Below, in pieces: positions 1-41,244 of a DNA stretch of 64,000 nucleotides. The notes below the pieces were generated by a model. The model ran no database searches. It saw only the letters and a program-made list of their open reading frames with translations, and had not been told where the DNA came from. The stretch's first letter is position 1. Every line of letters starts with the position of its first letter. Source of the stretch: Phytophthora sp. 'mugwort'. Lineage: Eukaryota > Oomycota > Peronosporomycetes > Peronosporales > Peronosporaceae. A program made the translations under genes and the position numbers. The DNA lies in the NCBI GenBank assembly GCA_033558025.1, contig JAUCEF010000013.1, positions 1,977,001 through 2,041,000 of the forward strand. The letters are read 5' to 3'.

Positions 1-376
1 GCACCCTCCAGCTCTCCCGGACACATCTATCTGCCACGTCTGCCGATCGCTCCCAGTCCGTCCCTCGCTCATCATGGCGGCTACACCTCAAGTTGACGGC
101 CTGTGGCCTGAGTGGTCCGCATTACGTCTATGCTGATAGTCCGGTCGGCTCGAATGTTAAGAATACCTGGCCATGCCTCCCAGCAGACCCGAAATAATTG
201 ACAACATCGAAAGCGCCATACGTTCGAAAGCAGTATCTATGTTCGTGAATAGCGGTCCGGGGTCTGTCGGTAGGACACGACACAACACGTCGGGACTGTG
301 TAGGCAGTGGCAAAATACACAAGGCATGCAACAAGCAGCAGAGAGTCTCGAACGGCCGTTGACGGAGACAAGAAGA

Positions 377-448
377 AGCGCGGGACCGGGATTGAACCAG
401 TGATCCTTCGAGCTGCAATCGAACGCTCTACCACTGAGCTACCCGCGC
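377..448 (-). tRNA. tRNA-Cys(GCA), array copy 1
   Basis: This copy stands as the description of all copies. Read on the minus strand, it folds into a full cloverleaf. The acceptor is GCGCGGG/CCCGCGC with 7 perfect pairs, and the D stem is GCTC/GAGC. The anticodon stem is TTCGA/TCGAA around loop TTGCAGC, so the anticodon is GCA (cysteine). The T stem is ACTGG/CCGGT with one T-G pair around loop TTCAATC. The discriminator base is U73, a known identity element for cysteinyl-tRNA synthetase. There is no intron and no encoded CCA, as expected for a nuclear eukaryotic gene. Internal Pol III A box (TAGCTCAGTGG) and B box (GGTTCAATCC) are present. The variable loop here is GGATC; most copies have GGGTC. 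Spacer type A. The nearest T4 run lies 61 nt beyond the discriminator base. Confidence 0.98.
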
Positions 449-929
449 GTCGAACCCTAACTATCCGCTACATCGTTTCAAAAATCTGGTTTGCTGGCCC
501 GGCACAGCCACACCTGCGCATCGACGCACGCTCGGCCTCGCCGCCGACCCCCCGCACCCTCCAGCTCTCCCGGACACATCTATCTGCCACGTCTGCCGAT
601 CGCTCCCAGTCCGTCCCTCGCTCATCATGGCGGCTACACCTCAAGTTGACGGCCTGTGGCCTGAGTGGTCCGCATTACGTCTATGCTGATAGTCCGGTCG
701 GCTCGAATGTTAAGAATACCTGGCCATGCCTCCCAGCAGACCCGAAATAATTGACAACATCGAAAGCGCCATACGTTCGAAAGCAGTATCTATGTTCGTG
801 AATAGCGGTCCGGGGTCTGTCGGTAGGACACGACACAACACGTCGGGACTGTGTAGGCAGTGGCAAAATACACAAGGCATGCAACAAGCAGCAGAGAGTC
901 TCGAACGGCCGTTGACGGAGACAAGAAGA

Positions 930-1001
930 AGCGCGGGACCGGGATTGAACCAGTGATCCTTCGAGCTGCAATCGAACGCTCTACCACTGAGCTACCCGCG
1001 C
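930..1001 (-). tRNA. tRNA-Cys(GCA), array copy 2
   Basis: Variable loop GGATC; spacer type A. Confidence 0.97.
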
Positions 1002-1482
1002 GTCGAACCCTAACTATCCGCTACATCGTTTCAAAAATCTGGTTTGCTGGCCCAGCACCGCCACACCTGCGCATCGACGCACGCTCGGCCTCGCCGCCGA
1101 CCCCCCGCACCCTCCAGCTCTCCCGGACACATCTATCTGCCACGTCTGCCGATCGCTCCCAGTCCGTCCCTCGCTCATCATGGCGGCTACACCTCAAGTT
1201 GACGGCCTGTGGCCTGAGTGGTCCGCATTACGTCTATGCTGATAGTCCGGTCGGCTCGAATGTTAAGAATACCTGGCCATGCCTCCCAGCAGACCCGAAA
1301 TAATTGACAACATCGAAAGCGCCATACGTTCGAAAGCAGTATCTATGTTCGTGAATAGCGGTCCGGGGTCTGTCGGTAGGACACGACACAACACGTCGGG
1401 ACTGTGTAGGCAGTGGCAAAATACACAAGGCATGCAACAAGCAGCAGAGAGTCTCGAACGGCCGTTGACGGAGACAAGAAGA

Positions 1483-1554
1483 AGCGCGGGACCGGGATTG
1501 AACCAGTGACCCTTCGAGCTGCAATCGAACGCTCTACCACTGAGCTACCCGCGC
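1483..1554 (-). tRNA. tRNA-Cys(GCA), array copy 3
   Basis: Variable loop GGGTC; spacer type A. Confidence 0.97.
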
Positions 1555-2035
1555 GTCGAACCCTAACTATCCGCTACATCGTTTCAAAAATCTGGTTTGC
1601 TGGCCCGGCACAGCCACACCTGCGCATCGACGCACGCTCGGCCTCGCCGCCGACCCCCCGCACCCTCCAGCTCTCCCGGACACATCTATCTGCCACGTCT
1701 GCCGATCGCTCCCAGTCCGTCCCTCGCTCATCATGGCGGCTACACCTCAAGTTGACGGCCTGTGGCCTGAGTGGTCCGCATTACGTCTATGCTGATAGTC
1801 CGGTCGGCTCGAATGTTAAGAATACCTGGCCATGCCTCCCAGCAGACCCGAAATAATTGACAACATCGAAAGCGCCATACGTTCGAAAGCAGTATCTATG
1901 TTCGTGAATAGCGGTCCGGGGTCTGTCGGTAGGACACGACACAACACGTCGGGACTGTGTAGGCAGTGGCAAAATACACAAGGCATGCAACAAGCAGCAG
2001 AGAGTCTCGAACGGCCGTTGACGGAGACAAGAAGA

Positions 2036-2107
2036 AGCGCGGGACCGGGATTGAACCAGTGACCCTTCGAGCTGCAATCGAACGCTCTACCACTGAGCTA
2101 CCCGCGC
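2036..2107 (-). tRNA. tRNA-Cys(GCA), array copy 4
   Basis: Variable loop GGGTC; spacer type A. Confidence 0.97.
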
Positions 2108-2588
2108 GTCGAACCCTAACTATCCGCTACATCGTTTCAAAAATCTGGTTTGCTGGCCCGGCACAGCCACACCTGCGCATCGACGCACGCTCGGCCTCGC
2201 CGCCGACCCCCCGCACCCTCCAGCTCTCCCGGACACATCTATCTGCCACGTCTGCCGATCGCTCCCAGTCCGTCCCTCGCTCATCATGGCGGCTACACCT
2301 CAAGTTGACGGCCTGTGGCCTGAGTGGTCCGCATTACGTCTATGCTGATAGTCCGGTCGGCTCGAATGTTAAGAATACCTGGCCATGCCTCCCAGCAGAC
2401 CCGAAATAATTGACAACATCGAAAGCGCCATACGTTCGAAAGCAGTATCTATGTTCGTGAATAGCGGTCCGGGGTCTGTCGGTAGGACACGACACAACAC
2501 GTCGGGACTGTGTAGGCAGTGGCAAAATACACAAGGCATGCAACAAGCAGCAGAGAGTCTCGAACGGCCGTTGACGGAGACAAGAAGA

Positions 2589-2660
2589 AGCGCGGGACCG
2601 GGATTGAACCAGTGACCCTTCGAGCTGCAATCGAACGCTCTACCACTGAGCTACCCGCGC
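2589..2660 (-). tRNA. tRNA-Cys(GCA), array copy 5
   Basis: Variable loop GGGTC; spacer type A. Confidence 0.97.
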
Positions 2661-3141
2661 GTCGAACCCTAACTATCCGCTACATCGTTTCAAAAATCTG
2701 GTTTGCTGGCCCAGCACCGCCACACCTGCGCATCGACGCACGCTCGGCCTCGCCGCCGACCCCCCGCACCCTCCAGCTCTCCCGGACACATCTATCTGCC
2801 ACGTCTGCCGATCGCTCCCAGTCCGTCCCTCGCTCATCATGGCGGCTACACCTCAAGTTGACGGCCTGTGGCCTGAGCGGTCCGCATTACGTCTATGCTG
2901 ATAGTCCGGTCGGCTCGAATGTTAAGAATACCTGGCCATGCCTCCCAGCAGACCCGAAATAATTGACAACATCGAAAGCGCCATACGTTCGAAAGCAGTA
3001 TCTATGTTCGTGAATAGCGGTCCGGGGTCTGTCGGTAGGACACGACACAACACGTCGGGACTGTGTAGGCAGTGGCAAAATACACAAGGCATGCAACAAG
3101 CAGCAGAGAGTCTCGAACGGCCGTTGACGGAGACAAGAAGA

Positions 3142-3213
3142 AGCGCGGGACCGGGATTGAACCAGTGATCCTTCGAGCTGCAATCGAACGCTCTACCACT
3201 GAGCTACCCGCGC
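3142..3213 (-). tRNA. tRNA-Cys(GCA), array copy 6
   Basis: Variable loop GGATC; spacer type A; this unit has the rare GAGCGG variant at 2875-2880. Confidence 0.97.
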
Positions 3214-3694
3214 GTCGAACCCTAACTATCCGCTACATCGTTTCAAAAATCTGGTTTGCTGGCCCGGCACAGCCACACCTGCGCATCGACGCACGCTCGG
3301 CCTCGCCGCCGACCCCCCGCACCCTCCAGCTCTCCCGGACACATCTATCTGCCACGTCTGCCGATCGCTCCCAGTCCGTCCCTCGCTCATCATGGCGGCT
3401 ACACCTCAAGTTGACGGCCTGTGGCCTGAGTGGTCCGCATTACGTCTATGCTGATAGTCCGGTCGGCTCGAATGTTAAGAATACCTGGCCATGCCTCCCA
3501 GCAGACCCGAAATAATTGACAACATCGAAAGCGCCATACGTTCGAAAGCAGTATCTATGTTCGTGAATAGCGGTCCGGGGTCTGTCGGTAGGACACGACA
3601 CAACACGTCGGGACTGTGTAGGCAGTGGCAAAATACACAAGGCATGCAACAAGCAGCAGAGAGTCTCGAACGGCCGTTGACGGAGACAAGAAGA

Positions 3695-3766
3695 AGCGCG
3701 GGACCGGGATTGAACCAGTGACCCTTCGAGCTGCAATCGAACGCTCTACCACTGAGCTACCCGCGC
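3695..3766 (-). tRNA. tRNA-Cys(GCA), array copy 7
   Basis: Variable loop GGGTC; spacer type A. Confidence 0.97.
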
Positions 3767-4247
3767 GTCGAACCCTAACTATCCGCTACATCGTTTCAAA
3801 AATCTGGTTTGCTGGCCCAGCACCGCCACACCTGCGCATCGACGCACGCTCGGCCTCGCCGCCGACCCCCCGCACCCTCCAGCTCTCCCGGACACATCTA
3901 TCTGCCACGTCTGCCGATCGCTCCCAGTCCGTCCCTCGCTCATCATGGCGGCTACACCTCAAGTTGACGGCCTGTGGCCTGAGTGGTCCGCATTACGTCT
4001 ATGCTGATAGTCCGGTCGGCTCGAATGTTAAGAATACCTGGCCATGCCTCCCAGCAGACCCGAAATAATTGACAACATCGAAAGCGCCATACGTTCGAAA
4101 GCAGTATCTATGTTCGTGAATAGCGGTCCGGGGTCTGTCGGTAGGACACGACACAACACGTCGGGACTGTGTAGGCAGTGGCAAAATACACAAGGCATGC
4201 AACAAGCAGCAGAGAGTCTCGAACGGCCGTTGACGGAGACAAGAAGA

Positions 4248-4319
4248 AGCGCGGGACCGGGATTGAACCAGTGACCCTTCGAGCTGCAATCGAACGCTCT
4301 ACCACTGAGCTACCCGCGC
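4248..4319 (-). tRNA. tRNA-Cys(GCA), array copy 8
   Basis: Variable loop GGGTC; spacer type A. Confidence 0.97.
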
Positions 4320-4800
4320 GTCGAACCCTAACTATCCGCTACATCGTTTCAAAAATCTGGTTTGCTGGCCCGGCACAGCCACACCTGCGCATCGACGCAC
4401 GCTCGGCCTCGCCGCCGACCCCCCGCACCCTCCAGCTCTCCCGGACACATCTATCTGCCACGTCTGCCGATCGCTCCCAGTCCGTCCCTCGCTCATCATG
4501 GCGGCTACACCTCAAGTTGACGGCCTGTGGCCTGAGTGGTCCGCATTACGTCTATGCTGATAGTCCGGTCGGCTCGAATGTTAAGAATACCTGGCCATGC
4601 CTCCCAGCAGACCCGAAATAATTGACAACATCGAAAGCGCCATACGTTCGAAAGCAGTATCTATGTTCGTGAATAGCGGTCCGGGGTCTGTCGGTAGGAC
4701 ACGACACAACACGTCGGGACTGTGTAGGCAGTGGCAAAATACACAAGGCATGCAACAAGCAGCAGAGAGTCTCGAACGGCCGTTGACGGAGACAAGAAGA

Positions 4801-4872
4801 AGCGCGGGACCGGGATTGAACCAGTGACCCTTCGAGCTGCAATCGAACGCTCTACCACTGAGCTACCCGCGC
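4801..4872 (-). tRNA. tRNA-Cys(GCA), array copy 9
   Basis: Variable loop GGGTC; spacer type A. Confidence 0.97.
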
Positions 4873-5353
4873 GTCGAACCCTAACTATCCGCTACATCGT
4901 TTCAAAAATCTGGTTTGCTGGCCCGGCACAGCCACACCTGCGCATCGACGCACGCTCGGCCTCACCGCCGACCCCCCGCACCCTCCAGCTCTCCCGGACA
5001 CATCTATCTGCCACGTCTGCCGATCGCTCCCAGTCCGTCCCTCGCTCATCATGGCGGCTACACCTCAAGTTGACGGCCTGTGGCCTGAGTGGTCCGCATT
5101 ACGTCTATGCTGATAGTCCGGTCGGCTCGAATGTTAAGAATACCTGGCCATGCCTCCCAGCAGACCCGAAATAATTGACAACATCGAAAGCGCCATACGT
5201 TCGAAAGCAGTATCTATGTTCGTGAATAGCGGTCCGGGGTCTGTCGGTAGGACACGACACAACACGTCGGGACTGTGTAGGCAGTGGCAAAATACACAAG
5301 GCATGCAACAAGCAGCAGAGAGTCTCGAACGGCCGTTGACGGAGACAAGAAGA

Positions 5354-5425
5354 AGCGCGGGACCGGGATTGAACCAGTGACCCTTCGAGCTGCAATCGAA
5401 CGCTCTACCACTGAGCTACCCGCGC
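5354..5425 (-). tRNA. tRNA-Cys(GCA), array copy 10
   Basis: Variable loop GGGTC; spacer type A. Confidence 0.97.
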
Positions 5426-5906
5426 GTCGAACCCTAACTATCCGCTACATCGTTTCAAAAATCTGGTTTGCTGGCCCGGCACAGCCACACCTGCGCATCG
5501 ACGCACGCTCGGCCTCGCCGCCGACCCTCCGCACCCTCCAGCTCTCCCGGACACATCTATCTGCCACGTCTGCCGATCGCTCCCAGTCCGTCCCTCGCTC
5601 ATCATGGCGGCTACACCTCAAGTTGACGGCCTGTGGCCTGAGTGGTCCGCATTACGTCTATGCTGATAGTCCGGTCGGCTCGAATGTTAAGAATACCTGG
5701 CCATGCCTCCCAGCAGACCCGAAATAATTGACAACATCGAAAGCGCCATACGTTCGAAAGCAGTATCTATGTTCGTGAATAGCGGTCCGGGGTCTGTCGG
5801 TAGGACACGACACAACACGTCGGGACTGTGTAGGCAGTGGCAAAATACACAAGGCATGCAACAAGCAGCAGAGAGTCTCGAACGGCCGTTGACGGAGACA
5901 AGAAGA

Positions 5907-5978
5907 AGCGCGGGACCGGGATTGAACCAGTGACCCTTCGAGCTGCAATCGAACGCTCTACCACTGAGCTACCCGCGC
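5907..5978 (-). tRNA. tRNA-Cys(GCA), array copy 11
   Basis: Variable loop GGGTC; spacer type A; private variant ACCCTCC near 5524. Confidence 0.97.
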
Positions 5979-6459
5979 GTCGAACCCTAACTATCCGCTA
6001 CATCGTTTCAAAAATCTGGTTTGCTGGCCCAGCACCGCCACACCTGCGCATCGACGCACGCTCGGCCTCGCCGCCGACCCCCCGCACCCTCCAGCTCTCC
6101 CGGACACATCTATCTGCCACGTCTGCCGATCGCTCCCAGTCCGTCCCTCGCTCATCATGGCGGCTACACCTCAAGTTGACGGCCTGTGGCCTGAGTGGTC
6201 CGCATTACGTCTATGCTGATAGTCCGGTCGGCTCGAATGTTAAGAATACCTGGCCATGCCTCCCAGCAGACCCGAAATAATTGACAACATCGAAAGCGCC
6301 ATACGTTCGAAAGCAGTATCTATGTTCGTGAATAGCGGTCCGGGGTCTGTCGGTAGGACACGACACAACACGTCGGGACTGTGTAGGCAGTGGCAAAATA
6401 CACAAGGCATGCAACAAGCAGCAGAGAGTCTCGAACGGCCGTTGACGGAGACAAGAAGA

Positions 6460-6531
6460 AGCGCGGGACCGGGATTGAACCAGTGACCCTTCGAGCTGCA
6501 ATCGAACGCTCTACCACTGAGCTACCCGCGC
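6460..6531 (-). tRNA. tRNA-Cys(GCA), array copy 12
   Basis: Variable loop GGGTC; spacer type A. Confidence 0.97.
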
Positions 6532-7012
6532 GTCGAACCCTAACTATCCGCTACATCGTTTCAAAAATCTGGTTTGCTGGCCCAGCACCGCCACACCTGC
6601 GCATCGACGCACGCTCGGCCTCGCCGCCGACCCCCCGCACCCTCCAGCTCTCCCGGACACATCTATCTGCCACGTCTGCCGATCGCTCCCAGTCCGTCCC
6701 TCGCTCATCATGGCGGCTACACCTCAAGTTGACGGCCTGTGGCCTGAGTGGTCCGCATTACGTCTATGCTGATAGTCCGGTCGGCTCGAATGTTAAGAAT
6801 ACCTGGCCATGCCTCCCAGCAGACCCGAAATAATTGACAACATCGAAAGCGCCATACGTTCGAAAGCAGTATCTATGTTCGTGAATAGCGGTCCGGGGTC
6901 TGTCGGTAGGACACGACACAACACGTCGGGACTGTGTAGGCAGTGGCAAAATACACAAGGCATGCAACAAGCAGCAGAGAGTCTCGAACGGCCGTTGACG
7001 GAGACAAGAAGA

Positions 7013-7084
7013 AGCGCGGGACCGGGATTGAACCAGTGACCCTTCGAGCTGCAATCGAACGCTCTACCACTGAGCTACCCGCGC
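7013..7084 (-). tRNA. tRNA-Cys(GCA), array copy 13
   Basis: Variable loop GGGTC; spacer type A. Confidence 0.97.
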
Positions 7085-7565
7085 GTCGAACCCTAACTAT
7101 CCGCTACATCGTTTCAAAAATCTGGTTTGCTGGCCCGGCACAGCCACACCTGCGCATCGACGCACGCTCGGCCTCGCCGCCGACCCCCCGCACCCTCCAG
7201 CTCTCCCGGACACATCTATCTGCCACGTCTGCCGATCGCTCCCAGTCCGTCCCTCGCTCATCATGGCGGCTACACCTCAAGTTGACGGCCTGTGGCCTGA
7301 GTGGTCCGCATTACGTCTATGCTGATAGTCCGGTCGGCTCGAATGTTAAGAATACCTGGCCATGCCTCCCAGCAGACCCGAAATAATTGACAACATCGAA
7401 AGCGCCATACGTTCGAAAGCAGTATCTATGTTCGTGAATAGCGGTCCGGGGTCTGTCGGTAGGACACGACACAACACGTCGGGACTGTGTAGGCAGTGGC
7501 AAAATACACAAGGCATGCAACAAGCAGCAGAGAGTCTCGAACGGCCGTTGACGGAGACAAGAAGA

Positions 7566-7637
7566 AGCGCGGGACCGGGATTGAACCAGTGATCCTTCGA
7601 GCTGCAATCGAACGCTCTACCACTGAGCTACCCGCGC
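7566..7637 (-). tRNA. tRNA-Cys(GCA), array copy 14
   Basis: Variable loop GGATC; spacer type A. Confidence 0.97.
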
Positions 7638-8118
7638 GTCGAACCCTAACTATCCGCTACATCGTTTCAAAAATCTGGTTTGCTGGCCCGGCACAGCCAC
7701 ACCTGCGCATCGACGCACGCTCGGCCTCGCCGCCGACCCCCCGCACCCTCCAGCTCTCCCGGACACATCTATCTGCCACGTCTGCCGATCGCTCCCAGTC
7801 CGTCCCTCGCTCATCATGGCGGCTACACCTCAAGTTGACGGCCTGTGGCCTGAGTGGTCCGCATTACGTCTATGCTGATAGTCCGGTCGGCTCGAATGTT
7901 AAGAATACCTGGCCATGCCTCCCAGCAGACCCGAAATAATTGACAACATCGAAAGCGCCATACGTTCGAAAGCAGTATCTATGTTCGTGAATAGCGGTCC
8001 GGGGTCTGTCGGTAGGACACGACACAACACGTCGGGACTGTGTAGGCAGTGGCAAAATACACAAGGCATGCAACAAGCAGCAGAGAGTCTCGAACGGCCG
8101 TTGACGGAGACAAGAAGA

Positions 8119-8190
8119 AGCGCGGGACCGGGATTGAACCAGTGATCCTTCGAGCTGCAATCGAACGCTCTACCACTGAGCTACCCGCGC
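8119..8190 (-). tRNA. tRNA-Cys(GCA), array copy 15
   Basis: Variable loop GGATC; spacer type A. Confidence 0.97.
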
Positions 8191-8671
8191 GTCGAACCCT
8201 AACTATCCGCTACATCGTTTCAAAAATCTGGTTTGCTGGCCCGGCACAGCCACACCTGCGCATCGACGCACGCTCGGCCTCGCCGCCGACCCCCCGCACC
8301 CTCCAGCTCTCCCGGACACATCTATCTGCCACGTCTGCCGATCGCTCCCAGTCCGTCCCTCGCTCATCATGGCGGCTACACCTCAAGTTGACGGCCTGTG
8401 GCCTGAGTGGTCCGCATTACGTCTATGCTGATAGTCCGGTCGGCTCGAATGTTAAGAATACCTGGCCATGCCTCCGAGCAGACCCGAAATAATTGACAAC
8501 ATCGAAAGCGCCATACGTTCGAAAGCAGTATCTATGTTCGTGAATAGCGGTCCGGGGTCTGTCGGTAGGACACGACACAACACGTCGGGACTGTGTAGGC
8601 AGTGGCAAAATACACAAGGCATGCAACAAGCAGCAGAGAGTCTCGAACGGCCGTTGACGGAGACAAGAAGA

Positions 8672-8743
8672 AGCGCGGGACCGGGATTGAACCAGTGATC
8701 CTTCGAGCTGCAATCGAACGCTCTACCACTGAGCTACCCGCGC
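8672..8743 (-). tRNA. tRNA-Cys(GCA), array copy 16
   Basis: Variable loop GGATC; spacer type A with the private variant CTCCGAG near 8475. Confidence 0.97.
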
Positions 8744-9224
8744 GTCGAACCCTAACTATCCGCTACATCGTTTCAAAAATCTGGTTTGCTGGCCCAGCAC
8801 CGCCACACCTGCGCATCGACGCACGCTCGGCCTCGCCGCCGACCCCCCGCACCCTCCAGCTCTCCCGGACACATCTATCTGCCACGTCTGCCGATCGCTC
8901 CCAGTCCGTCCCTCGCTCATCATGGCGGCTACACCTCAAGTTGACGGCCTGTGGCCTGAGTGGTCCGCATTACGTCTATGCTGATAGTCCGGTCGGCTCG
9001 AATGTTAAGAATACCTGGCCATGCCTCCCAGCAGACCCGAAATAATTGACAACATCGAAAGCGCCATACGTTCGAAAGCAGTATCTATGTTCGTGAATAG
9101 CGGTCCGGGGTCTGTCGGTAGGACACGACACAACACGTCGGGACTGTGTAGGCAGTGGCAAAATACACAAGGCATGCAACAAGCAGCAGAGAGTCTCGAA
9201 CGGCCGTTGACGGAGACAAGAAGA

Positions 9225-9296
9225 AGCGCGGGACCGGGATTGAACCAGTGACCCTTCGAGCTGCAATCGAACGCTCTACCACTGAGCTACCCGCGC
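9225..9296 (-). tRNA. tRNA-Cys(GCA), array copy 17
   Basis: Variable loop GGGTC; spacer type A. Confidence 0.97.
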
Positions 9297-9777
9297 GTCG
9301 AACCCTAACTATCCGCTACATCGTTTCAAAAATCTGGTTTGCTGGCCCGGCACAGCCACACCTGCGCATCGACGCACGCTCGGCCTCGCCGCCGACCCCC
9401 CGCACCCTCCAGCTCTCCCGGACACATCTATCTGCCATGTCTGCCGATCGCTCCCAGTCCGTCCCTCGCTCATCATGGCGGCTACACCTCAAGTTGACGG
9501 CCTGTGGCCTGAGTGGTCCGCATTACGTCTATGCTGATAGTCCGGTCGGCTCGAATGTTAAGAATACCTGGCCATGCCTCCCAGCAGACCCGAAATAATT
9601 GACAACATCGAAAGCGCCATACGTTCGAAAGCAGTATCTATGTTCGTGAATAGCGGTCCGGGGTCTGTCGGTAGGACACGACACAACACGTCGGGACTGT
9701 GTAGGCAGTGGCAAAATACACAAGGCATGCAACAAGCAGCAGAGAGTCTCGAACGGCCGTTGACGGAGACAAGAAGA

Positions 9778-9849
9778 AGCGCGGGACCGGGATTGAACCA
9801 GTGACCCTTCGAGCTGCAATCGAACGCTCTACCACTGAGCTACCCGCGC
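9778..9849 (-). tRNA. tRNA-Cys(GCA), array copy 18
   Basis: Variable loop GGGTC; spacer type A; shares the rare GCCATGTCTG variant with copy 38. Confidence 0.97.
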
Positions 9850-10330
9850 GTCGAACCCTAACTATCCGCTACATCGTTTCAAAAATCTGGTTTGCTGGCC
9901 CGGCACAGCCACACCTGCGCATCGACGCACGCTCGGCCTCGCCGCCGACCCCCCGCACCCTCCAGCTCTCCCGGACACATCTATCTGCCACGTCTGCCGA
10001 TCGCTCCCAGTCCGTCCCTCGCTCATCATGGCGGCTACACCTCAAGTTGACGGCCTGTGGCCTGAGTGGTCCGCATTACGTCTATGCTGATAGTCCGGTC
10101 GGCTCGAATGTTAAGAATACCTGGCCATGCCTCCCAGCAGACCCGAAATAATTGACAACATCGAAAGCGCCATACGTTCGAAAGCAGTATCTATGTTCGT
10201 GAATAGCGGTCCGGGGTCTGTCGGTAGGACACGACACAACACGTCGGGACTGTGTAGGCAGTGGCAAAATACACAAGGCATGCAACAAGCAGCAGAGAGT
10301 CTCGAACGGCCGTTGACGGAGACAAGAAGA

Positions 10331-10402
10331 AGCGCGGGACCGGGATTGAACCAGTGACCCTTCGAGCTGCAATCGAACGCTCTACCACTGAGCTACCCGC
10401 GC
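10331..10402 (-). tRNA. tRNA-Cys(GCA), array copy 19
   Basis: Variable loop GGGTC; spacer type A. Confidence 0.97.
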
Positions 10403-10883: not shown

Positions 10884-10955
10884 AGCGCGGGACCGGGATT
10901 GAACCAGTGATCCTTCGAGCTGCAATCGAACGCTCTACCACTGAGCTACCCGCGC
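10884..10955 (-). tRNA. tRNA-Cys(GCA), array copy 20
   Basis: Variable loop GGATC; spacer type A. Confidence 0.97.
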
Positions 10956-31344: not shown

Positions 31345-31416
31345 AGCGCGGGACCGGGATTGAACCAGTGACCCTTCGAGCTGCAATCGAACGCTCTACC
31401 ACTGAGCTACCCGCGC
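31345..31416 (-). tRNA. tRNA-Cys(GCA), array copy 57
   Basis: Variable loop GGGTC; spacer type A with both GACCCAAAATAA (five units after copy 52) and ACAGGACAC (nine units after copy 48). Confidence 0.97.
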
Positions 31417-31897
31417 GTCGAACCCTAACTATCCGCTACATCGTTTCAAAAATCTGGTTTGCTGGCCCGGCACAGCCACACCTGCGCATCGACGCACGCT
31501 CGGCCTCGCCGCCGACCCCCCGCACCCTCCAGCTCTCCCGGACACATCTATCTGCCACGTCTGCCGATCGCTCCCAGTCCGTCCCTCGCTCATCATGGCG
31601 GCTACACCTCAAGTTGACGGCCTGTGGCCTGAGTGGTCCGCATTACGTCTATGCTGATAGTCCGGTCGGCTCGAATGTTAAGAATTCCTGGCCATGCCTC
31701 CCAGCAGACCCGAAATAATTGACAACATCGAAAGCGCCATACGTTCGAAAGCAGTATCTATGTCCGTGAATAGCGGTCCGGGGTCTGTCGGTAGGACACG
31801 ACACAACACGTCGGGACTGTGTAGGCAGTGGCAAAATACACAATGCATGCAACAAGCAGCAGAGAGTCTCGAACGGCCGTTGACGGAGACAAGAAGA

Positions 31898-31969
31898 AGC
31901 GCGGGACCGGGATTGAACCAGTGACCCTTCGAGCTGCAATCGAACGCTCTACCACTGAGCTACCCGCGC
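31898..31969 (-). tRNA. tRNA-Cys(GCA), array copy 58
   Basis: Variable loop GGGTC; spacer type B; private variant CAATGCATGC in the trailer near 31842. Confidence 0.97.
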
Positions 31970-32450
31970 GTCGAACCCTAACTATCCGCTACATCGTTTC
32001 AAAAATCTGGTTTGCAGGCCCGGCACAGCCACACCTGCGCATCGACGCACGCTCGGCCTCGCCGCCGACCCCCCGCACCCTCCAGCTCTCCCGGACACAT
32101 CTATCTGCCACGTCTGCCGATCGCTCCCAGTCCGTCCCTCGCTCATCATGGCGGCTACACCTCAAGTTGACGGCCTGTGGCCTGAGTGGTCCGCATTACG
32201 TCTATGCTGATAGTCCGGTCGGCTCGAATGTTAAGAATACCTGGCCATGCCTCCCAGCAGACCCGAAATAATTGACAACATCGAAAGCGCCATACGTTCG
32301 AAAGCAGTATCTATGTCCGTGAATAGCGGTCCGGGGTCTGTCGGTAGGACACGACACAACACGTCGGGACTGTGTAGGCAGTGGCAAAATACACAAGGCA
32401 TGCAACAAGCAGCAGAGAGTCTCGAACGGCCGTTGACGGAGACAAGAAGA

Positions 32451-32522
32451 AGCGCGGGACCGGGATTGAACCAGTGACCCTTCGAGCTGCAATCGAACGC
32501 TCTACCACTGAGCTACCCGCGC
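32451..32522 (-). tRNA. tRNA-Cys(GCA), array copy 59
   Basis: Variable loop GGGTC; spacer type C. Confidence 0.97.
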
Positions 32523-33003
32523 GTCGAACCCTAACTATCCGCTACATCGTTTCAAAAATCTGGTTTGCAGGCCCGGCACAGCCACACCTGCGCATCGACG
32601 CACGCTCGGCCTCGCCGCCGACCCCCCGCACCCTCCAGCTCTCCCGGACACATCTATCTGCCACGTCTGCCGATCGCTCCCAGTCCGTCCCTCGCTCATC
32701 ATGGCGGCTACACCTCAAGTTGACGGCCTGTGGCCTGAGTGGTCCGCATTACGTCTATGCTGATAGTCCGGTCGGCTCGAATGTTAAGAATACCTGGCCA
32801 TGCCTCCCAGCAGACCCGAAATAATTGACAACATCGAAAGCGCCATACGTTCGAAAGCAGTATCTATGTTCGTGAATAGCGGTCCGGGGTCTGTCGGTAG
32901 GACACGACACAACACGTCGGGACTGTGTAGGCAGTGGCAAAATACACAAGGCATGCAACAAGCAGCAGAGAGTCTCGAACGGCCGTTGACGGAGACAAGA
33001 AGA

Positions 33004-33075
33004 AGCGCGGGACCGGGATTGAACCAGTGACCCTTCGAGCTGCAATCGAACGCTCTACCACTGAGCTACCCGCGC
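33004..33075 (-). tRNA. tRNA-Cys(GCA), array copy 60
   Basis: Variable loop GGGTC; spacer type A. Confidence 0.97.
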
Positions 33076-33556
33076 GTCGAACCCTAACTATCCGCTACAT
33101 CGTTTCAAAAATCTGGTTTGCAGGCCCGGCACAGCCACACCTGCGCATCGACGCACGCTCGGCCTCGCCGCCGACCCCCCGCACCCTCCAGCTCTCCCGG
33201 ACACATCTATCTGCCACGTCTGCCGATCGCTCCCAGTCCGTCCCTCGCTCATCATGGCGGCTACACCTCAAGTTGACGGCCTGTGGCCTGAGTGGTCCGC
33301 ATTACGTCTATGCTGATAGTCCGGTCGGCTCGAATGTTAAGAATACCTGGCCATGCCTCCCAGCAGACCCGAAATAATTGACAACATCGAAAGCGCCATA
33401 CGTTCGAAAGCAGTATCTATGTTCGTGAATAGCGGTCCGGGGTCTGTCGGTAGGACACGACACAACACGTCGGGACTGTGTAGGCAGTGGCAAAATACAC
33501 AAGGCATGCAACAAGCAGCAGAGAGTCTCGAACGGCCGTTGACGGAGACAAGAAGA

Positions 33557-33628
33557 AGCGCGGGACCGGGATTGAACCAGTGACCCTTCGAGCTGCAATC
33601 GAACGCTCTACCACTGAGCTACCCGCGC
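33557..33628 (-). tRNA. tRNA-Cys(GCA), array copy 61
   Basis: Variable loop GGGTC; spacer type A. Confidence 0.97.
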
Positions 33629-34109
33629 GTCGAACCCTAACTATCCGCTACATCGTTTCAAAAATCTGGTTTGCTGGCCCGGCACAGCCACACCTGCGCA
33701 TCGACGCACGCTCGGCCTCGCCGCCGACCCCCCGCACCCTCCAGCTCTCCCGGACACATCTATCTGCCACGTCTGCCGATCGCTCCCAGTCCGTCCCTCG
33801 CTCATCATGGCGGCTACACCTCAAGTTGACGGCCTGTGGCCTGAGTGGTCCGCATTACGTCTATGCTGATAGTCCGGTCGGCTCGAATGTTAAGAATACC
33901 TGGCCATGCCTCCCAGCAGACCCGAAATAATTGACAACATCGAAAGCGCCATACGTTCGAAAGCAGTATCTATGTTCGTGAATAGCGGTCCGGGGTCTGT
34001 CGGTAGGACACGACACAACACGTCGGGACTGTGTAGGCAGTGGCAAAATACACAAGGCATGCAACAAGCAGCAGAGAGTCTCGAACGGCCGTTGACGGAG
34101 ACAAGAAGA

Positions 34110-34181
34110 AGCGCGGGACCGGGATTGAACCAGTGACCCTTCGAGCTGCAATCGAACGCTCTACCACTGAGCTACCCGCGC
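34110..34181 (-). tRNA. tRNA-Cys(GCA), array copy 62
   Basis: Variable loop GGGTC; spacer type A. Confidence 0.97.
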
Positions 34182-34662
34182 GTCGAACCCTAACTATCCG
34201 CTACATCGTTTCAAAAATCTGGTTTGCTGGCCCGGCACAGCCACACCTGCGCATCGACGCACGCTCGGCCTCGCCGCCGACCCCCCGCACCCTCCAGCTC
34301 TCCCGGACACATCTATCTGCCACGTCTGCCGATCGCTCCCAGTCCGTCCCTCGCTCATCATGGCGGCTACACCTCAAGTTGACGGCCTGTGGCCTGAGTG
34401 GTCCGCATTACGTCTATGCTGATAGTCCGGTCGGCTCGAATGTTAAGAATACCTGGCCATGCCTCCCAGCAGACCCGAAATAATTGACAACATCGAAAGC
34501 GCCATACGTTCGAAAGCAGTATCTATGTTCGTGAATAGCGGTCCGGGGTCTGTCGGTAGGACACGACACAACACGTCGGGACTGTGTAGGCAGTGGCAAA
34601 ATACACAAGGCATGCAACAAGCAGCAGAGAGTCTCGAACGGCCGTTGACGGAGACAAGAAGA

Positions 34663-34734
34663 AGCGCGGGACCGGGATTGAACCAGTGACCCTTCGAGCT
34701 GCAATCGAACGCTCTACCACTGAGCTACCCGCGC
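34663..34734 (-). tRNA. tRNA-Cys(GCA), array copy 63
   Basis: Variable loop GGGTC; spacer type A. Confidence 0.97.
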
Positions 34735-35215
34735 GTCGAACCCTAACTATCCGCTACATCGTTTCAAAAATCTGGTTTGCAGGCCCGGCACAGCCACACC
34801 TGCGCATCGACGCACGCTCGGCCTCGCCGCCGACCCCCCGCACCCTCCAGCTCTCCCGGACACATCTATCTGCCACGTCTGCCGATCGCTCCCAGTCCGT
34901 CCCTCGCTCATCATGGCGGCTACACCTCAAGTTGACGGCCTGTGGCCTGAGTGGTCCGCATTACGTCTATGCTGATAGTCCGGTCGGCTCGAATGTTAAG
35001 AATACCTGGCCATGCCTCCCAGCAGACCCGAAATAATTGACAACATCGAAAGCGCCATACGTTCGAAAGCAGTATCTATGTTCGTGAATAGCGGTCCGGG
35101 GTCTGTCGGTAGGACACGACACAACACGTCGGGACTGTGTAGGCAGTGGCAAAATACACAAGGCATGCAACAAGCAGCAGAGAGTCTCGAACGGCCGTTG
35201 ACGGAGACAAGAAGA

Positions 35216-35287
35216 AGCGCGGGACCGGGATTGAACCAGTGACCCTTCGAGCTGCAATCGAACGCTCTACCACTGAGCTACCCGCGC
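35216..35287 (-). tRNA. tRNA-Cys(GCA), array copy 64
   Basis: Variable loop GGGTC; spacer type A. Confidence 0.97.
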
Positions 35288-35768
35288 GTCGAACCCTAAC
35301 TATCCGCTACATCGTTTCAAAAATCTGGTTTGCAGGCCCGGCACAGCCACACCTGCGCATCGACGCACGCTCGGCCTCGCCGCCGACCCCCCGCACCCTC
35401 CAGCTCTCCCGGACACATCTATCTGCCACGTCTGCCGATCGCTCCCAGTCCGTCCCTCGCTCATCATGGCGGCTACACCTCAAGTTGACGGCCTGTGGCC
35501 TGAGTGGTCCGCATTACGTCTATGCTGATAGTCCGGTCGGCTCGAATGTTAAGAATTCCTGGCCATGCCTCCCAGCAGACCCGAAATAATTGACAACATC
35601 GAAAGCGCCATACGTTCGAAAGCAGTATCTATGTCCGTGAATAGCGGTCCGGGGTCTGTCGGTAGGACACGACACAACACGTCGGGACTGTGTAGGCAGT
35701 GGCAAAATACACAAGGCATGCAACAAGCAGCAGAGAGTCTCGAACGGCCGTTGACGGAGACAAGAAGA

Positions 35769-35840
35769 AGCGCGGGACCGGGATTGAACCAGTGACCCTT
35801 CGAGCTGCAATCGAACGCTCTACCACTGAGCTACCCGCGC
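35769..35840 (-). tRNA. tRNA-Cys(GCA), array copy 65
   Basis: Variable loop GGGTC; spacer type B; 5' flank carries the extra T and CCAGGCACAG. Confidence 0.97.
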
Positions 35841-36322
35841 GTCGAACCCTAACTATCCGCTACATCGTTTTCAAAAATCTGGTTTGCTGGCCAGGCACAG
35901 CCACACCTGCGCATCGACGCACGCTCGGCCTCGCCGCCGACCCCCCGCACCCTCCAGCTCTCCCGGACACATCTATCTGCCACGTCTGCCGATCGCTCCC
36001 AGTCCGTCCCTCGCTCATCATGGCGGCTACACCTCAAGTTGACGGCCTGTGGCCTGAGTGGTCCGCATTACGTCTATGCTGATAGTCCGGTCGGCTCGAA
36101 TGTTAAGAATACCTGGCCATGCCTCCCAGCAGACCCGAAATAATTGACAACATCGAAAGCGCCATACGTTCGAAAGCAGTATCTATGTCCGTGAATAGCG
36201 GTCCGGGGTCTGTCGGTAGGACACGACACAACACGTCGGGACTGTGTAGGCAGTGGCAAAATACACAAGGCATGCAACAAGCAGCAGAGAGTCTCGAACG
36301 GCAGTTGACGGAGACAAGAAGA

Positions 36323-36394
36323 AGCGCGGGACCGGGATTGAACCAGTGACCCTTCGAGCTGCAATCGAACGCTCTACCACTGAGCTACCCGCGC
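36323..36394 (-). tRNA. tRNA-Cys(GCA), array copy 66
   Basis: Variable loop GGGTC; spacer type C; trailer has GGCAGTTG instead of GGCCGTTG. Confidence 0.97.
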
Positions 36395-36875
36395 GTCGAA
36401 CCCTAACTATCCGCTACATCGTTTCAAAAATCTGGTTTGCAGGCCCGGCACAGCCACACCTGCGCATCGACGCACGCTCGGCCTCGCCGCCGACCCCCCG
36501 CACCCTCCAGCTCTCCCGGACACATCTATCTGCCACGTCTGCCGATCGCTCCCAGTCCGTCCCTCGCTCATCATGGCGGCTACACCTCAAGTTGACGGCC
36601 TGTGGCCTGAGTGGTCCGCATTACGTCTATGCTGATAGTCCGGTCGGCTCGAATGTTAAGAATTCCTGGCCATGCCTCCCAGCAGACCCGAAATAATTGA
36701 CAACATCGAAAGCGCCATACGTTCGAAAGCAGTATCTATGTCCGTGAATAGCGGTCCGGGGTCTGTCGGTAGGACACGACACAACACGTCGGGACTGTGT
36801 AGGCAGTGGCAAAATACACAAGGCATGCAACAAGCAGCAGAGAGTCTCGAACGGCCGTTGACGGAGACAAGAAGA

Positions 36876-36947
36876 AGCGCGGGACCGGGATTGAACCAGT
36901 GACCCTTCGAGCTGCAATCGAACGCTCTACCACTGAGCTACCCGCGC
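36876..36947 (-). tRNA. tRNA-Cys(GCA), array copy 67
   Basis: Variable loop GGGTC; spacer type B; 5' flank carries the extra T. Confidence 0.97.
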
Positions 36948-37429
36948 GTCGAACCCTAACTATCCGCTACATCGTTTTCAAAAATCTGGTTTGCTGGCCA
37001 GGCACAGCCACACCTGCGCATCGACGCACGCTCGGCCTCGCCGCCGACCCCCCGCACCCTCCAGCTCTCCCGGACACATCTATCTGCCACGTCTGCCGAT
37101 CGCTCCCAGTCCGTCCCTCGCTCATCATGGCGGCTACACCTCAAGTTGACGGCCTGTGGCCTGAGTGGTCCGCATTACGTCTATGCTGATAGTCCGGTCG
37201 GCTCGAATGTTAAGAATACCTGGCCATGCCTCCCAGCAGACCCGAAATAATTGACAACATCGAAAGCGCCATACGTTCGAAAGCAGTATCTATGTCCGTG
37301 AATAGCGGTCCGGGGTCTGTCGGTAGGACACGACACAACACGTCGGGACTGTGTAGGCAGTGGCAAAATACACAAGGCATGCAACAAGCAGCAGAGAGTC
37401 TCGAACGGCAGTTGACGGAGACAAGAAGA

Positions 37430-37501
37430 AGCGCGGGACCGGGATTGAACCAGTGACCCTTCGAGCTGCAATCGAACGCTCTACCACTGAGCTACCCGCG
37501 C
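37430..37501 (-). tRNA. tRNA-Cys(GCA), array copy 68
   Basis: Variable loop GGGTC; spacer type C; trailer GGCAGTTG. Confidence 0.97.
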
Positions 37502-37982
37502 GTCGAACCCTAACTATCCGCTACATCGTTTCAAAAATCTGGTTTGCAGGCCCGGCACAGCCACACCTGCGCATCGACGCACGCTCGGCCTCGCCGCCGA
37601 CCCCCCGCACCCTCCAGCTCTCCCGGACACATCTATCTGCCACGTCTGCCGATCGCTCCCAGTCCGTCCCTCGCTCATCATGGCGGCTACACCTCAAGTT
37701 GACGGCCTGTGGCCTGAGTGGTCCGCATTACGTCTATGCTGATAGTCCGGTCGGCTCGAATGTTAAGAATACCTGGCCATGCCTCCCAGCAGACCCGAAA
37801 TAATTGACAACATCGAAAGCGCCATACGTTCGAAAGCAGTATCTATGTTCGTGAATAGCGGTCCGGGGTCTGTCGGTAGGACACGACACAACACGTCGGG
37901 ACTGTGTAGGCAGTGGCAAAATACACAAGGCATGCAACAAGCAGCAGAGAGTCTCGAACGGCCGTTGACGGAGACAAGAAGA

Positions 37983-38054
37983 AGCGCGGGACCGGGATTG
38001 AACCAGTGACCCTTCGAGCTGCAATCGAACGCTCTACCACTGAGCTACCCGCGC
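37983..38054 (-). tRNA. tRNA-Cys(GCA), array copy 69
   Basis: Variable loop GGGTC; spacer type A. Confidence 0.97.
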
Positions 38055-38535
38055 GTCGAACCCTAACTATCCGCTACATCGTTTCAAAAATCTGGTTTGC
38101 AGGCCCGGCACAGCCACACCTGCGCATCGACGCACGCTCGGCCTCGCCGCCGACCCCCCGCACCCTCCAGCTCTCCCGGACACATCTATCTGCCACGTCT
38201 GCCGATCGCTCCCAGTCCGTCCCTCGCTCATCATGGCGGCTACACCTCAAGTTGACGGCCTGTGGCCTGAGTGGTCCGCATTACGTCTATGCTGATAGTC
38301 CGGTCGGCTCGAATGTTAAGAATTCCTGGCCATGCCTCCCAGCAGACCCGAAATAATTGACAACATCGAAAGCGCCATACGTTCGAAAGCAGTATCTATG
38401 TCCGTGAATAGCGGTCCGGGGTCTGTCGGTAGGACACGACACAACACGTCGGGACTGTGTAGGCAGTGGCAAAATACACAAGGCATGCAACAAGCAGCAG
38501 AGAGTCTCGAACGGCCGTTGACGGAGACAAGAAGA

Positions 38536-38607
38536 AGCGCGGGACCGGGATTGAACCAGTGACCCTTCGAGCTGCAATCGAACGCTCTACCACTGAGCTA
38601 CCCGCGC
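38536..38607 (-). tRNA. tRNA-Cys(GCA), array copy 70
   Basis: Variable loop GGGTC; spacer type B; 5' flank carries the extra T. Confidence 0.97.
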
Positions 38608-39089
38608 GTCGAACCCTAACTATCCGCTACATCGTTTTCAAAAATCTGGTTTGCTGGCCAGGCACAGCCACACCTGCGCATCGACGCACGCTCGGCCTCG
38701 CCGCCGACCCCCCGCACCCTCCAGCTCTCCCGGACACATCTATCTGCCACGTCTGCCGATCGCTCCCAGTCCGTCCCTCGCTCATCATGGCGGCTACACC
38801 TCAAGTTGACGGCCTGTGGCCTGAGTGGTCCGCATTACGTCTATGCTGATAGTCCGGTCGGCTCGAATGTTAAGAATACCTGGCCATGCCTCCCAGCAGA
38901 CCCGAAATAATTGACAACATCGAAAGCGCCATACGTTCGAAAGCAGTATCTATGTCCGTGAATAGCGGTCCGGGGTCTGTCGGTAGGACACGACACAACA
39001 CGTCGGGACTGTGTAGGCAGTGGCAAAATACACAAGGCATGCAACAAGCAGCAGAGAGTCTCGAACGGCAGTTGACGGAGACAAGAAGA

Positions 39090-39161
39090 AGCGCGGGACC
39101 GGGATTGAACCAGTGACCCTTCGAGCTGCAATCGAACGCTCTACCACTGAGCTACCCGCGC
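39090..39161 (-). tRNA. tRNA-Cys(GCA), array copy 71
   Basis: Variable loop GGGTC; spacer type C; trailer GGCAGTTG. Confidence 0.97.
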
Positions 39162-39642
39162 GTCGAACCCTAACTATCCGCTACATCGTTTCAAAAATCT
39201 GGTTTGCAGGCCCGGCACAGCCACACCTGCGCATCGACGCACGCTCGGCCTCGCCGCCGACCCCCCGCACCCTCCAGCTCTCCCGGACACATCTATCTGC
39301 CACGTCTGCCGATCGCTCCCAGTCCGTCCCTCGCTCATCATGGCGGCTACACCTCAAGTTGACGGCCTGTGGCCTGAGTGGTCCGCATTACGTCTATGCT
39401 GATAGTCCGGTCGGCTCGAATGTTAAGAATTCCTGGCCATGCCTCCCAGCAGACCCGAAATAATTGACAACATCGAAAGCGCCATACGTTCGAAAGCAGT
39501 ATCTATGTCCGTGAATAGCGGTCCGGGGTCTGTCGGTAGGACACGACACAACACGTCGGGACTGTGTAGGCAGTGGCAAAATACACAAGGCATGCAACAA
39601 GCAGCAGAGAGTCTCGAACGGCCGTTGACGGAGACAAGAAGA

Positions 39643-39714
39643 AGCGCGGGACCGGGATTGAACCAGTGACCCTTCGAGCTGCAATCGAACGCTCTACCAC
39701 TGAGCTACCCGCGC
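39643..39714 (-). tRNA. tRNA-Cys(GCA), array copy 72
   Basis: Variable loop GGGTC; spacer type B; 5' flank carries the extra T. Confidence 0.97.
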
Positions 39715-40196
39715 GTCGAACCCTAACTATCCGCTACATCGTTTTCAAAAATCTGGTTTGCTGGCCAGGCACAGCCACACCTGCGCATCGACGCACGCTC
39801 GGCCTCGCCGCCGACCCCCCGCACCCTCCAGCTCTCCCGGACACATCTATCTGCCACGTCTGCCGATCGCTCCCAGTCCGTCCCTCGCTCATCATGGCGG
39901 CTACACCTCAAGTTGACGGCCTGTGGCCTGAGTGGTCCGCATTACGTCTATGCTGATAGTCCGGTCGGCTCGAATGTTAAGAATACCTGGCCATGCCTCC
40001 CAGCAGACCCGAAATAATTGACAACATCGAAAGCGCCATACGTTCGAAAGCAGTATCTATGTCCGTGAATAGCGGTCCGGGGTCTGTCGGTAGGACACGA
40101 CACAACACGTCGGGACTGTGTAGGCAGTGGCAAAATACACAAGGCATGCAACAAGCAGCAGAGAGTCTCGAACGGCAGTTGACGGAGACAAGAAGA

Positions 40197-40268
40197 AGCG
40201 CGGGACCGGGATTGAACCAGTGACCCTTCGAGCTGCAATCGAACGCTCTACCACTGAGCTACCCGCGC
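40197..40268 (-). tRNA. tRNA-Cys(GCA), array copy 73
   Basis: Variable loop GGGTC; spacer type C; trailer GGCAGTTG; 5' flank carries the extra T. Confidence 0.97.
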
Positions 40269-40750
40269 GTCGAACCCTAACTATCCGCTACATCGTTTTC
40301 AAAAATCTGGTTTGCTGGCCAGGCACAGCCACACCTGCGCATCGACGCACGCTCGGCCTCGCCGCCGACCCCCCGCACCCTCCAGCTCTCCCGGACACAT
40401 CTATCTGCCACGTCTGCCGATCGCTCCCAGTCCGTCCCTCGCTCATCATGGCGGCTACACCTCAAGTTGACGGCCTGTGGCCTGAGTGGTCCGCATTACG
40501 TCTATGCTGATAGTCCGGTCGGCTCGAATGTTAAGAATACCTGGCCATGCCTCCCAGCAGACCCGAAATAATTGACAACATCGAAAGCGCCATACGTTCG
40601 AAAGCAGTATCTATGTCCGTGAATAGCGGTCCGGGGTCTGTCGGTAGGACACGACACAACACGTCGGGACTGTGTAGGCAGTGGCAAAATACACAAGGCA
40701 TGCAACAAGCAGCAGAGAGTCTCGAACGGCAGTTGACGGAGACAAGAAGA

Positions 40751-40822
40751 AGCGCGGGACCGGGATTGAACCAGTGACCCTTCGAGCTGCAATCGAACGC
40801 TCTACCACTGAGCTACCCGCGC
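40751..40822 (-). tRNA. tRNA-Cys(GCA), array copy 74 (last)
   Basis: Variable loop GGGTC; spacer type C; trailer GGCAGTTG. This is the last tRNA before the array edge. The next unit (type A) is cut off before its tRNA. Confidence 0.97.
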
Positions 40823-41244
40823 GTCGAACCCTAACTATCCGCTACATCGTTTCAAAAATCTGGTTTGCAGGCCCGGCACAGCCACACCTGCGCATCGACG
40901 CACGCTCGGCCTCGCCGCCGACCCCCCGCACCCTCCAGCTCTCCCGGACACATCTATCTGCCACGTCTGCCGATCGCTCCCAGTCCGTCCCTCGCTCATC
41001 ATGGCGGCTACACCTCAAGTTGACGGCCTGTGGCCTGAGTGGTCCGCATTACGTCTATGCTGATAGTCCGGTCGGCTCGAATGTTAAGAATACCTGGCCA
41101 TGCCTCCCAGCAGACCCGAAATAATTGACAACATCGAAAGCGCCATACGTTCGAAAGCAGTATCTATGTTCGTGAATAGCGGTCCGGGGTCTGTCGGTAG
41201 GACACGACACAACACGTCGGGACTGTGTAGGCAGTAGCAAAATA

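Follow-up and report, generated by a model that had tools for sequence, protein, structure and literature searches.

Here, we report that the genome of Phytophthora sp. 'mugwort' carries 194 intact tRNA-Cys(GCA) genes in one highly homogeneous tandem array of about 107.6 kb, and that 194 of the 195 close matches to this tRNA in the genome lie within it. The array enters the window (the whole 64,000-nucleotide stretch of contig C13 analysed here) from the left. Its tRNA-Cys(GCA) genes are likely functional nuclear genes that are transcribed by Pol III and evolve in concert, and they are probably the only intact nuclear source of this tRNA in the genome. It is an array of a known kind, since one of the same tRNA has already been published for P. 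infestans.

Within the window, ARAGORN identified 74 tRNA-Cys(GCA) genes, all on the minus strand (Table 1), as the initial annotation had counted. Their spacing is 553 bp in 68 cases and 554 bp in five; the right end, placed earlier at 41243, is one base off. The array had also been described as running past the left edge of the window, and it does: its bounds are C13:1,910,630-2,018,244 (the right edge being window position 41244), and a scan of C13:1,857,001-2,081,000 counted 194 tRNA copies, the first at 1,911,011 and the last at 2,017,751. Across the whole array the spacing is 553 bp (185 times), 554 bp (5) or 555 bp (3). The scanned region contains no N runs and no opposite-strand copies of the tRNA within 8 substitutions. 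The copy number comes from a script and a pattern search; ARAGORN was run on the 74 copies of the window and on two stretches of the array to its left (18 copies each), and the remaining copies were judged intact from their identity to the two tRNA sequences called by ARAGORN. Tandem Repeats Finder, whose longest period is 500, did not output the array. An array this regular cannot be the product of chance. Its 194 copies exceed any obvious need.

Table 1. Features of the window (positions in the window).
Feature	Position	Strand	Basis
Array, right-hand part: 74 of 194 tRNA-Cys(GCA) copies, unit 553-554 bp	1..41244	-	ARAGORN and spacing
Likely Pol III terminator, first T4 run, +62 to +65 after the tRNA	312..315	-	putative function
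Leftmost complete tRNA-Cys(GCA) gene of the window, 72 nt, U73	377..448	-	ARAGORN
Spacer between gene copies 1 and 2, 481 bp	449..929	-	between ARAGORN genes
Rightmost tRNA-Cys gene, the most upstream in the array	40751..40822	-	ARAGORN
Non-array flank	41245..43684	.	GC drop
Copia-type LTR-retrotransposon pieces (gag, pre-integrase, SH3-like), right flank	43685..45847	-	Pfam
Class-III aminotransferase gene, right flank	54593..56107	+	domain match
Gene with kinesin motor domain, right flank	56914..59700	+	domain match

Non-array sequence borders the array at both edges inside the single 5.37-Mb contig C13, and GC content is about 0.58 within the array vs 0.45 in the first flanking kilobase on the right. 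In the left flank, we found a retrotransposon SH3-like piece (L016:9517-9999), whose integrase match falls below the Pfam cut-off. The ten flank ORFs tested showed retrotransposon pieces singly, not clustered, and ordinary genes occur within tens of kb of the array on either side. The array is internal on C13, whose rDNA end lies 1.9 Mb away and whose telomere end lies 3.35 Mb away; a subtelomeric role, raised in the initial annotation, is rejected on this position and on the nearby genes. TTTAGGG repeats are present at the C13 contig end, and U2 snRNA genes are found in the genome in tandem with a reverse-transcriptase ORF; both observations fit an oomycete, the kind of genome that the initial annotation assumed.

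The 194 tRNA copies comprise two sequences only, present in 175 and 19 copies and differing by one base in the variable loop; the leftmost complete gene of the window is the minority variant, with an A there. Both have the GCA anticodon and a terminal T (discriminator U73), which bears out the earlier description of a single-isoacceptor array with an intact tRNA and U73 in every copy. In Rfam, the array copies score 65.5 bits. Each unit holds one tRNA gene, and Tandem Repeats Finder reported no tandem repeat within the array. On the consensus unit, from which the window position was calculated, the first T4 run begins at +62; it is the likely Pol III terminator and implies a 3' trailer probably of about 60 nt. 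Secondary structure prediction gives no support here: the tRNA with its trailer folds no better than shuffled sequences (z = -0.39), and the predicted minimum-energy structure is not a cloverleaf. Rfam detected no RNA family above the gathering score in the spacer, and the longest ATG ORF overlapping the spacer in the unit region examined has 76 aa.

Units are on average 99.5% identical in pairwise comparisons, and fall into 51 types arranged in irregular order. Identical units adjoin each other more than in shuffled arrays: the observed value was reached by 1 of 500 shuffles at lag 1, by 0/500 at lag 2 and by 2/500 at lag 3, the likeness being weaker at lags 4 and 6 (54/500 and 52/500). We also observed a tandem duplication of a seven-unit block with six distinct unit types (units 50-56 and 57-63); the longest block in shuffled arrays was equally long (maximum 7, mean 3.5; n = 100). 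Units of deviating length occur only near the edges, the three 555-bp ones being units 2-4 and the five 554-bp ones falling within units 185-193, which resembles the edge-clustered variants described in P. infestans (PMC9584435); base variants are dispersed along the array. Of 34 variation events, one maps to the 72-nt gene and 33 to the 481-bp spacer, a borderline deficit of variation in the gene (P = 0.053). Between -46 and +62, a stretch of 180 bp, there are five variable sites (P = 0.016); this region was picked after looking, and we do not rely on it.

A genome-wide search with a pattern for the 3' half of the tRNA yielded the 194 array copies and a single match on contig C7. The patterns were exact and return close matches only, so that a diverged tRNA-Cys could escape them; no second intact tRNA-Cys was found among the matches listed. 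The C7 match is a 106-bp insert, consisting of the tRNA from nucleotide 2 to its 3' end and of 35 trailer nucleotides, without the unit body and without an A-rich tail. A dispersed repeat carries it in one copy; of 28 further places found, 25 read across the junction without the insert. It resembles a pre-tRNA that was captured after its 5' end had been processed. ARAGORN still labels it tRNA-Cys and Rfam gives it 55 bits, so it may be an expressed tRNA gene. Searching with the whole unit (a DNA search that ignores words common in the genome) returned the C7 piece only. A general tRNA family search, with 63 of 9,329 candidates scored, returned eight loci, all belonging to one mitochondrial-type tRNA cluster, and is therefore silent on nuclear tRNAs; two more generic tRNA patterns had no matches in the genome. 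Judging from the pattern search, the array is probably the only intact nuclear source of tRNA-Cys(GCA).

In the model that we favour, the 553-bp unit would comprise a tRNA gene whose A and B boxes are internal, a long 3' trailer ended at the T4 terminator, and non-coding spacer sequence. Blocks of units would be copied and kept alike by unequal crossing-over or gene conversion, with unequal exchange as the presumed driver, and purifying selection on the total tRNA supply would preserve the intact gene. The genes would be transcribed, copy number would probably drift far above need, and most copies would be redundant. Since tRNA searches continue to recognise the C7 piece, our confidence in this model is slightly reduced. 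The tandem unit of ~550 bp with one tRNA could also be a SINE-like, tRNA-derived selfish element expanded in place, its tRNA serving merely as a Pol III promoter, as proposed for clusters in Peronospora effusa (PMC11540230), and the C7 insert provides one partial dispersed copy within another repeat. We consider this improbable, as all other matches are at one tandem locus, every copy has one of two intact tRNA sequences, and the array probably must supply the tRNA, given that a second intact gene was not found among the matches listed. Instead of the dispersed full-length copies with a tail that define a SINE, the searches recovered only the short C7 piece, and the Cys unit has no BLAST similarity to a 1,701-base piece of the tRNA-Ile array of this genome. 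A SINE, or a satellite that captured a tRNA gene, both mentioned in the initial annotation, thus fit poorly with the only intact tRNA-Cys locus recovered by the patterns. That the assembler produced the array, or its size, is very improbable. The assembly is not clean, with many small contigs containing a high-scoring tRNA place and the eight loci above sharing the mitochondrial-type cluster, and tRNA counts are reported to vary between assemblies of one species (PMC9584435); however, a single contig without N contains both edges, each with its own distinct flank, the irregular order of 51 unit types is unlike the simple duplication of one stretch, and representative P. infestans tRNA families were backed by read depth (PMC9584435).

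A large array bound by TFIIIC and Pol III, or heterochromatic, could serve mainly as a boundary, clustering or centromere element, with tRNA supply secondary. Its size and the retrotransposon pieces on both flanks, Copia-type at the right, are compatible with such a role: P. sojae has centromeres rich in Copia elements (PMC11139960), tRNA repeats have been tied to boundaries in human (PMC4041453) and to heterochromatin in Arabidopsis (PMC12308677), and the P. infestans authors raised a role in chromatin organisation (PMC9584435). The ordinary genes on both sides, the lack of retrotransposon clustering in the flank ORFs tested and the internal position nevertheless make it distinctly unlikely. 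Selection for dosage, under which 194 copies would be kept to satisfy a high demand for tRNA-Cys(GCA), for example from cysteine-rich secreted proteins, accords with every copy being intact and with the array as probable sole source. However, tRNAs for Ile and Phe are arrayed too, tRNA copy number and codon use in P. infestans are only modestly related (R = 0.41), and its most expanded families, Pro and Ser, serve infrequent codons (PMC9584435); we regard dosage selection as rather unlikely.

Besides the array of tRNA-Cys genes, we detected a tRNA-Ile array on contig C5 (three genes confirmed in L058) and a tRNA-Phe array on C11 (anticodon read by eye); the three came to light because their tRNAs fit the patterns used. 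Their tRNAs differ and their periods are nearly equal: 553-555 bp for Cys, mostly 540/544 for Ile and mostly 556/557 for Phe. It is conceivable, if doubtful, that unit length rather than sequence is under constraint, with a spacing set by chromatin (for example, some three nucleosomes for each gene); besides supplying tRNA, the arrays would then be phased Pol III chromatin. Units of 513, 717 and (dimeric) 850 nt published for P. infestans and P. effusa speak against a strict length, as do the consensus sequences of P. effusa clusters, which span 284-1,070 bp (PMC11540230).

The initial annotation knew of no such array in an oomycete, a statement outdated by reports on P. infestans (PMC9584435) and P. 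effusa (PMC11540230). In P. infestans, all 271 of 271 tRNA-Cys(GCA) genes are reported in one tandem array on Chr6 (PMC9584435, 2022). Isoacceptor, single tandem locus (here as regards close matches) and near-identical units are shared with our array, as are, for P. infestans arrays in general, one gene per unit, uniform direction and the arraying of other tRNAs; the copy number and unit differ (271 and 513 nt there, 194 and 553 nt here). P. effusa has 33-39 tRNA clusters per isolate, called SINE-like (PMC11540230, 2024), which are likewise tandem and at fixed places. In its Arg cluster, the tRNA varies less than the remainder of the unit, and the 717-bp unit is inverted in some isolates, whereas here 0 copies are inverted. 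Spacer ORFs are also described there, some of them annotated genes of ~300 nt with signal peptide and RXLR, in contrast to the 76-aa maximum here. The portions of the papers on P. parasitica satellites (PMC7290008) and on P. agathidicida (PMC9667082) drawn on here contain nothing on tRNA arrays, apart from tRNA counts per chromosome in the latter.

More distantly, the comparison with Entamoeba made in the initial annotation was worthwhile, as its tRNA genes also form long homogeneous tandem arrays (PMC2652664). An Entamoeba unit, however, can carry as many as 5 tRNA genes and, in E. histolytica/dispar, also short tandem repeats, and these arrays have been proposed to act at chromosome ends; C13 ends in TTTAGGG repeats. 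As each unit of the array described here has a single gene, and Tandem Repeats Finder reported no tandem repeat within the array, the Entamoeba type is rejected. By their descriptions, the Arabidopsis SYY cluster, which decodes serine and tyrosine (PMC12308677), and the human 1q23.3 repeat, with a 7.3-kb unit in 9-43 copies per allele (PMC4041453), are likewise nuclear tRNA genes in tandem.

These results bear on a live dispute, in which oomycete tRNA arrays are taken for real tRNA genes in the P. infestans paper and for SINE-like elements in the P. effusa paper. That all close matches but one lie at a single locus, with no other intact tRNA-Cys among those listed, argues against the SINE-like reading for this array, and if a genome has its only intact tRNA-Cys(GCA) genes in such an array, the array is not merely selfish. 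Dependence of an essential tRNA on one tandem locus is an oddity, and such loci are reported to vary in size between P. effusa isolates. As a second, fully bounded tRNA-Cys array beside that of P. infestans, the array described here suggests that arraying of this isoacceptor at a single locus may be common to the group.

ARAGORN predicted 74 genes for tRNA-Cys(GCA) in the window, every one on the minus strand, in agreement with the initial annotation, and the array did continue past the left edge as had been proposed. Counting copies across C13:1,857,001-2,081,000 (the window, C13:1,977,001-2,041,000, together with C13:1,857,001-1,977,000 and C13:2,041,001-2,081,000; C13 is contig JAUCEF010000013.1), we found 194, spaced by 553 bp (185), 554 bp (5) or 555 bp (3). 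The same region contained no runs of N, and no tRNA-Cys copy on the opposite strand with up to 8 substitutions allowed. Each edge of the array is cut between genes and then passes into unrelated sequence; the array thus lies wholly inside one 5.37-Mb contig of the assembly (G000; 86.26 Mb, 154 contigs).

Location of the tRNA-Cys array, the isolated tRNA-Cys match and two further tRNA arrays
Feature	Location	Extent	Strand	Remarks
tRNA-Cys(GCA) array	~C13:1,910,630 to 2,018,244	~107.6 kb	minus	right edge at window 41244
C7 piece (L025)	G000:C7:4854099-4854204	106-bp insert		tRNA-Cys and trailer
tRNA-Ile(AAT) tandem array	G000:C5:1702083 onward			three genes confirmed
tRNA-Phe(GAA) tandem array	G000:C11:1720389 onward			anticodon read by eye

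Ten flank ORFs were tested for gene content. Retrotransposon pieces flank the array on both sides, those on the right being Copia-type; the flanking genes include a CNNM-domain protein on the left, and a class-III aminotransferase, a kinesin-domain gene and a mitochondrial carrier on the right. C13 starts inside an 18S rRNA gene, 1.91 Mb from the array, and its other end, 3.35 Mb from the array, carries TTTAGGG repeats. With such distances to both ends, the subtelomeric location entertained in the initial annotation was rejected.

Two other features were observed nearby. Adjacent ORFs at window 63007-63879 and C13:2,041,713-2,042,570 are likely a local duplicate pair, since their proteins begin alike and the first ORF has a match to the mitochondrial carrier family. 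To the immediate right of the window (L021-L024, C13:2,041,001-2,081,000) there is a second tandem array, in which U2 snRNA (10 matches: one of 144.9 bits, eight at 76 and a cut-off copy at 49.6) alternates with an ORF; this ORF recurs at 2,953-bp intervals (six times) and then, in a 2,116-aa form, at 6,726-bp intervals (three times). The first copy of this ORF has a reverse transcriptase match, and the array looks like the U2-targeting Utopia non-LTR elements published in PMC4640811.

Among the 194 copies there are two tRNA-Cys sequences only (175 vs 19 copies), one variable-loop base apart (linear nt 45). Both end in U73, which bears out the presence of this base in every copy. The ARAGORN calls cover the copies in the window and in two stretches of the array farther left; the remaining copies have identical sequences. 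In the consensus unit the first T4 3' of the gene is at +62, and a 3' trailer of ~60 nt would therefore be expected on the transcript. No RNA family scored above the Rfam gathering score in the spacer. The longest ATG ORF in the unit region examined is 76 aa, in contrast to P. effusa units, for which spacer ORFs are reported (PMC11540230).

The 193 complete units comprise 51 distinct sequences with 35 variable columns and a mean pairwise identity of 99.5%; length variants occur at the two array edges only. Counting one two-base insertion once, there are 34 variation events. All but one fall in the spacer (33 vs 1 in the 72-nt gene; binomial P = 0.053), a shortage in the gene that is suggestive, not decisive. 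Identical units lie close together above the shuffle level, with observed values of 0.130 at lag 1 (reached in 1/500 shuffles), 0.162 at lag 2 (0/500) and 0.121 at lag 3 (2/500); the likeness is weaker at lags 4 (54/500) and 6 (52/500), and absent by lag 15-20. A block of 7 units, of 6 types, is duplicated in tandem (units 50-56 = 57-63), its length by itself proving little because shuffles also reach 7 (maximum in 100 shuffles; mean 3.5). Unequal exchange or gene conversion would be expected to leave such a pattern.

A tRNA-Cys 3'-half pattern matched 195 places genome-wide, the 194 array copies and one on C7. A looser pattern gave 363 matches (reversed-pattern control, 14); about the first 100 were listed, and those beyond are, we infer, mostly tRNA-Ala copies on many small contigs. 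ARAGORN called a tRNA in 2 of 9 non-array loci (L027-L035) taken from pattern searches that included the looser one: a tRNA-Cys, which is the C7 piece, and a tRNA-Ala(TGC). A pattern with G for A in the T-loop, excluding tRNA-Ala(TGC) spacing, gave 4 matches (control, 10); three of these were among the ARAGORN loci and had no tRNA call, and the fourth is on C16. The C13 array is the only intact tRNA-Cys(GCA) locus found by these sequence searches, which could miss a diverged gene.

The C7 piece runs from tRNA-Cys nt 2 through the 3' end and 35 nt of trailer, inside one copy of a dispersed repeat. An insert-less query of this repeat gave 30 matches: the two C7 flanks themselves, 25 that span the insert-less junction and 3 that stop short of it. 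Because the piece begins at nt 2, it suggests a captured pre-tRNA with its 5' end already cut; chance alone would place an insert end this close (within one base) to the 5' or 3' terminus of the tRNA in ~2% of cases. It may be taken as a single, indirect hint of transcription. The piece itself may not be dead, since ARAGORN and Rfam (55 bits) still call it a tRNA.

A generic tRNA pattern gave 669 matches genome-wide (control, 0), and the ~100 listed were all in the tRNA-Ile array; a narrower version of it gave 82, of which one was on C10, and the 81 others, on C11, were read as tRNA-Phe(GAA). The periods of the tRNA-Ile array (540 or 544 bp in 37/38 gaps, first 39 places listed) and the tRNA-Phe array (556 or 557 bp in 27/29 gaps, first 30 places listed) are near that of the Cys array (553 bp). 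When the Cys unit was compared by BLAST with 1,701 bases of the Ile array, no similarity was detected at E = 1. These results hint that a period near 550 bp is common to unrelated arrays. Separately, one high-scoring tRNA place recurs on many small contigs in the range C15 to C115, and eight loci (L001-L008) have a common Asn-Ser-Met-Pro-Met-Gly tRNA cluster; the contigs with this cluster probably represent pieces of the mitochondrial genome that remain in the assembly in repeated form.

The initial annotation knew of no such array in an oomycete, a view overtaken by publications on P. infestans (7,519 tRNA genes reported; PMC9584435) and P. effusa (33-39 tRNA clusters per isolate, holding ~99.6% of >6,000 tRNA genes; PMC11540230). 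Since both report tRNA arrays, the tRNA-Cys array is of a kind already published in oomycetes; we found no published array for this particular genome in the literature, and do not claim that the array is unpublished. It is real, large, well bounded and of known kind. PMC11540230 proposes the term SINE-like for the P. effusa clusters, and arrays of this kind could be read as tRNA-derived selfish repeats. What the present array adds is its probable status as the sole source of tRNA-Cys(GCA), which favours true tRNA genes over SINE-like elements, together with the hint of a ~550-bp period across unrelated tRNA arrays.
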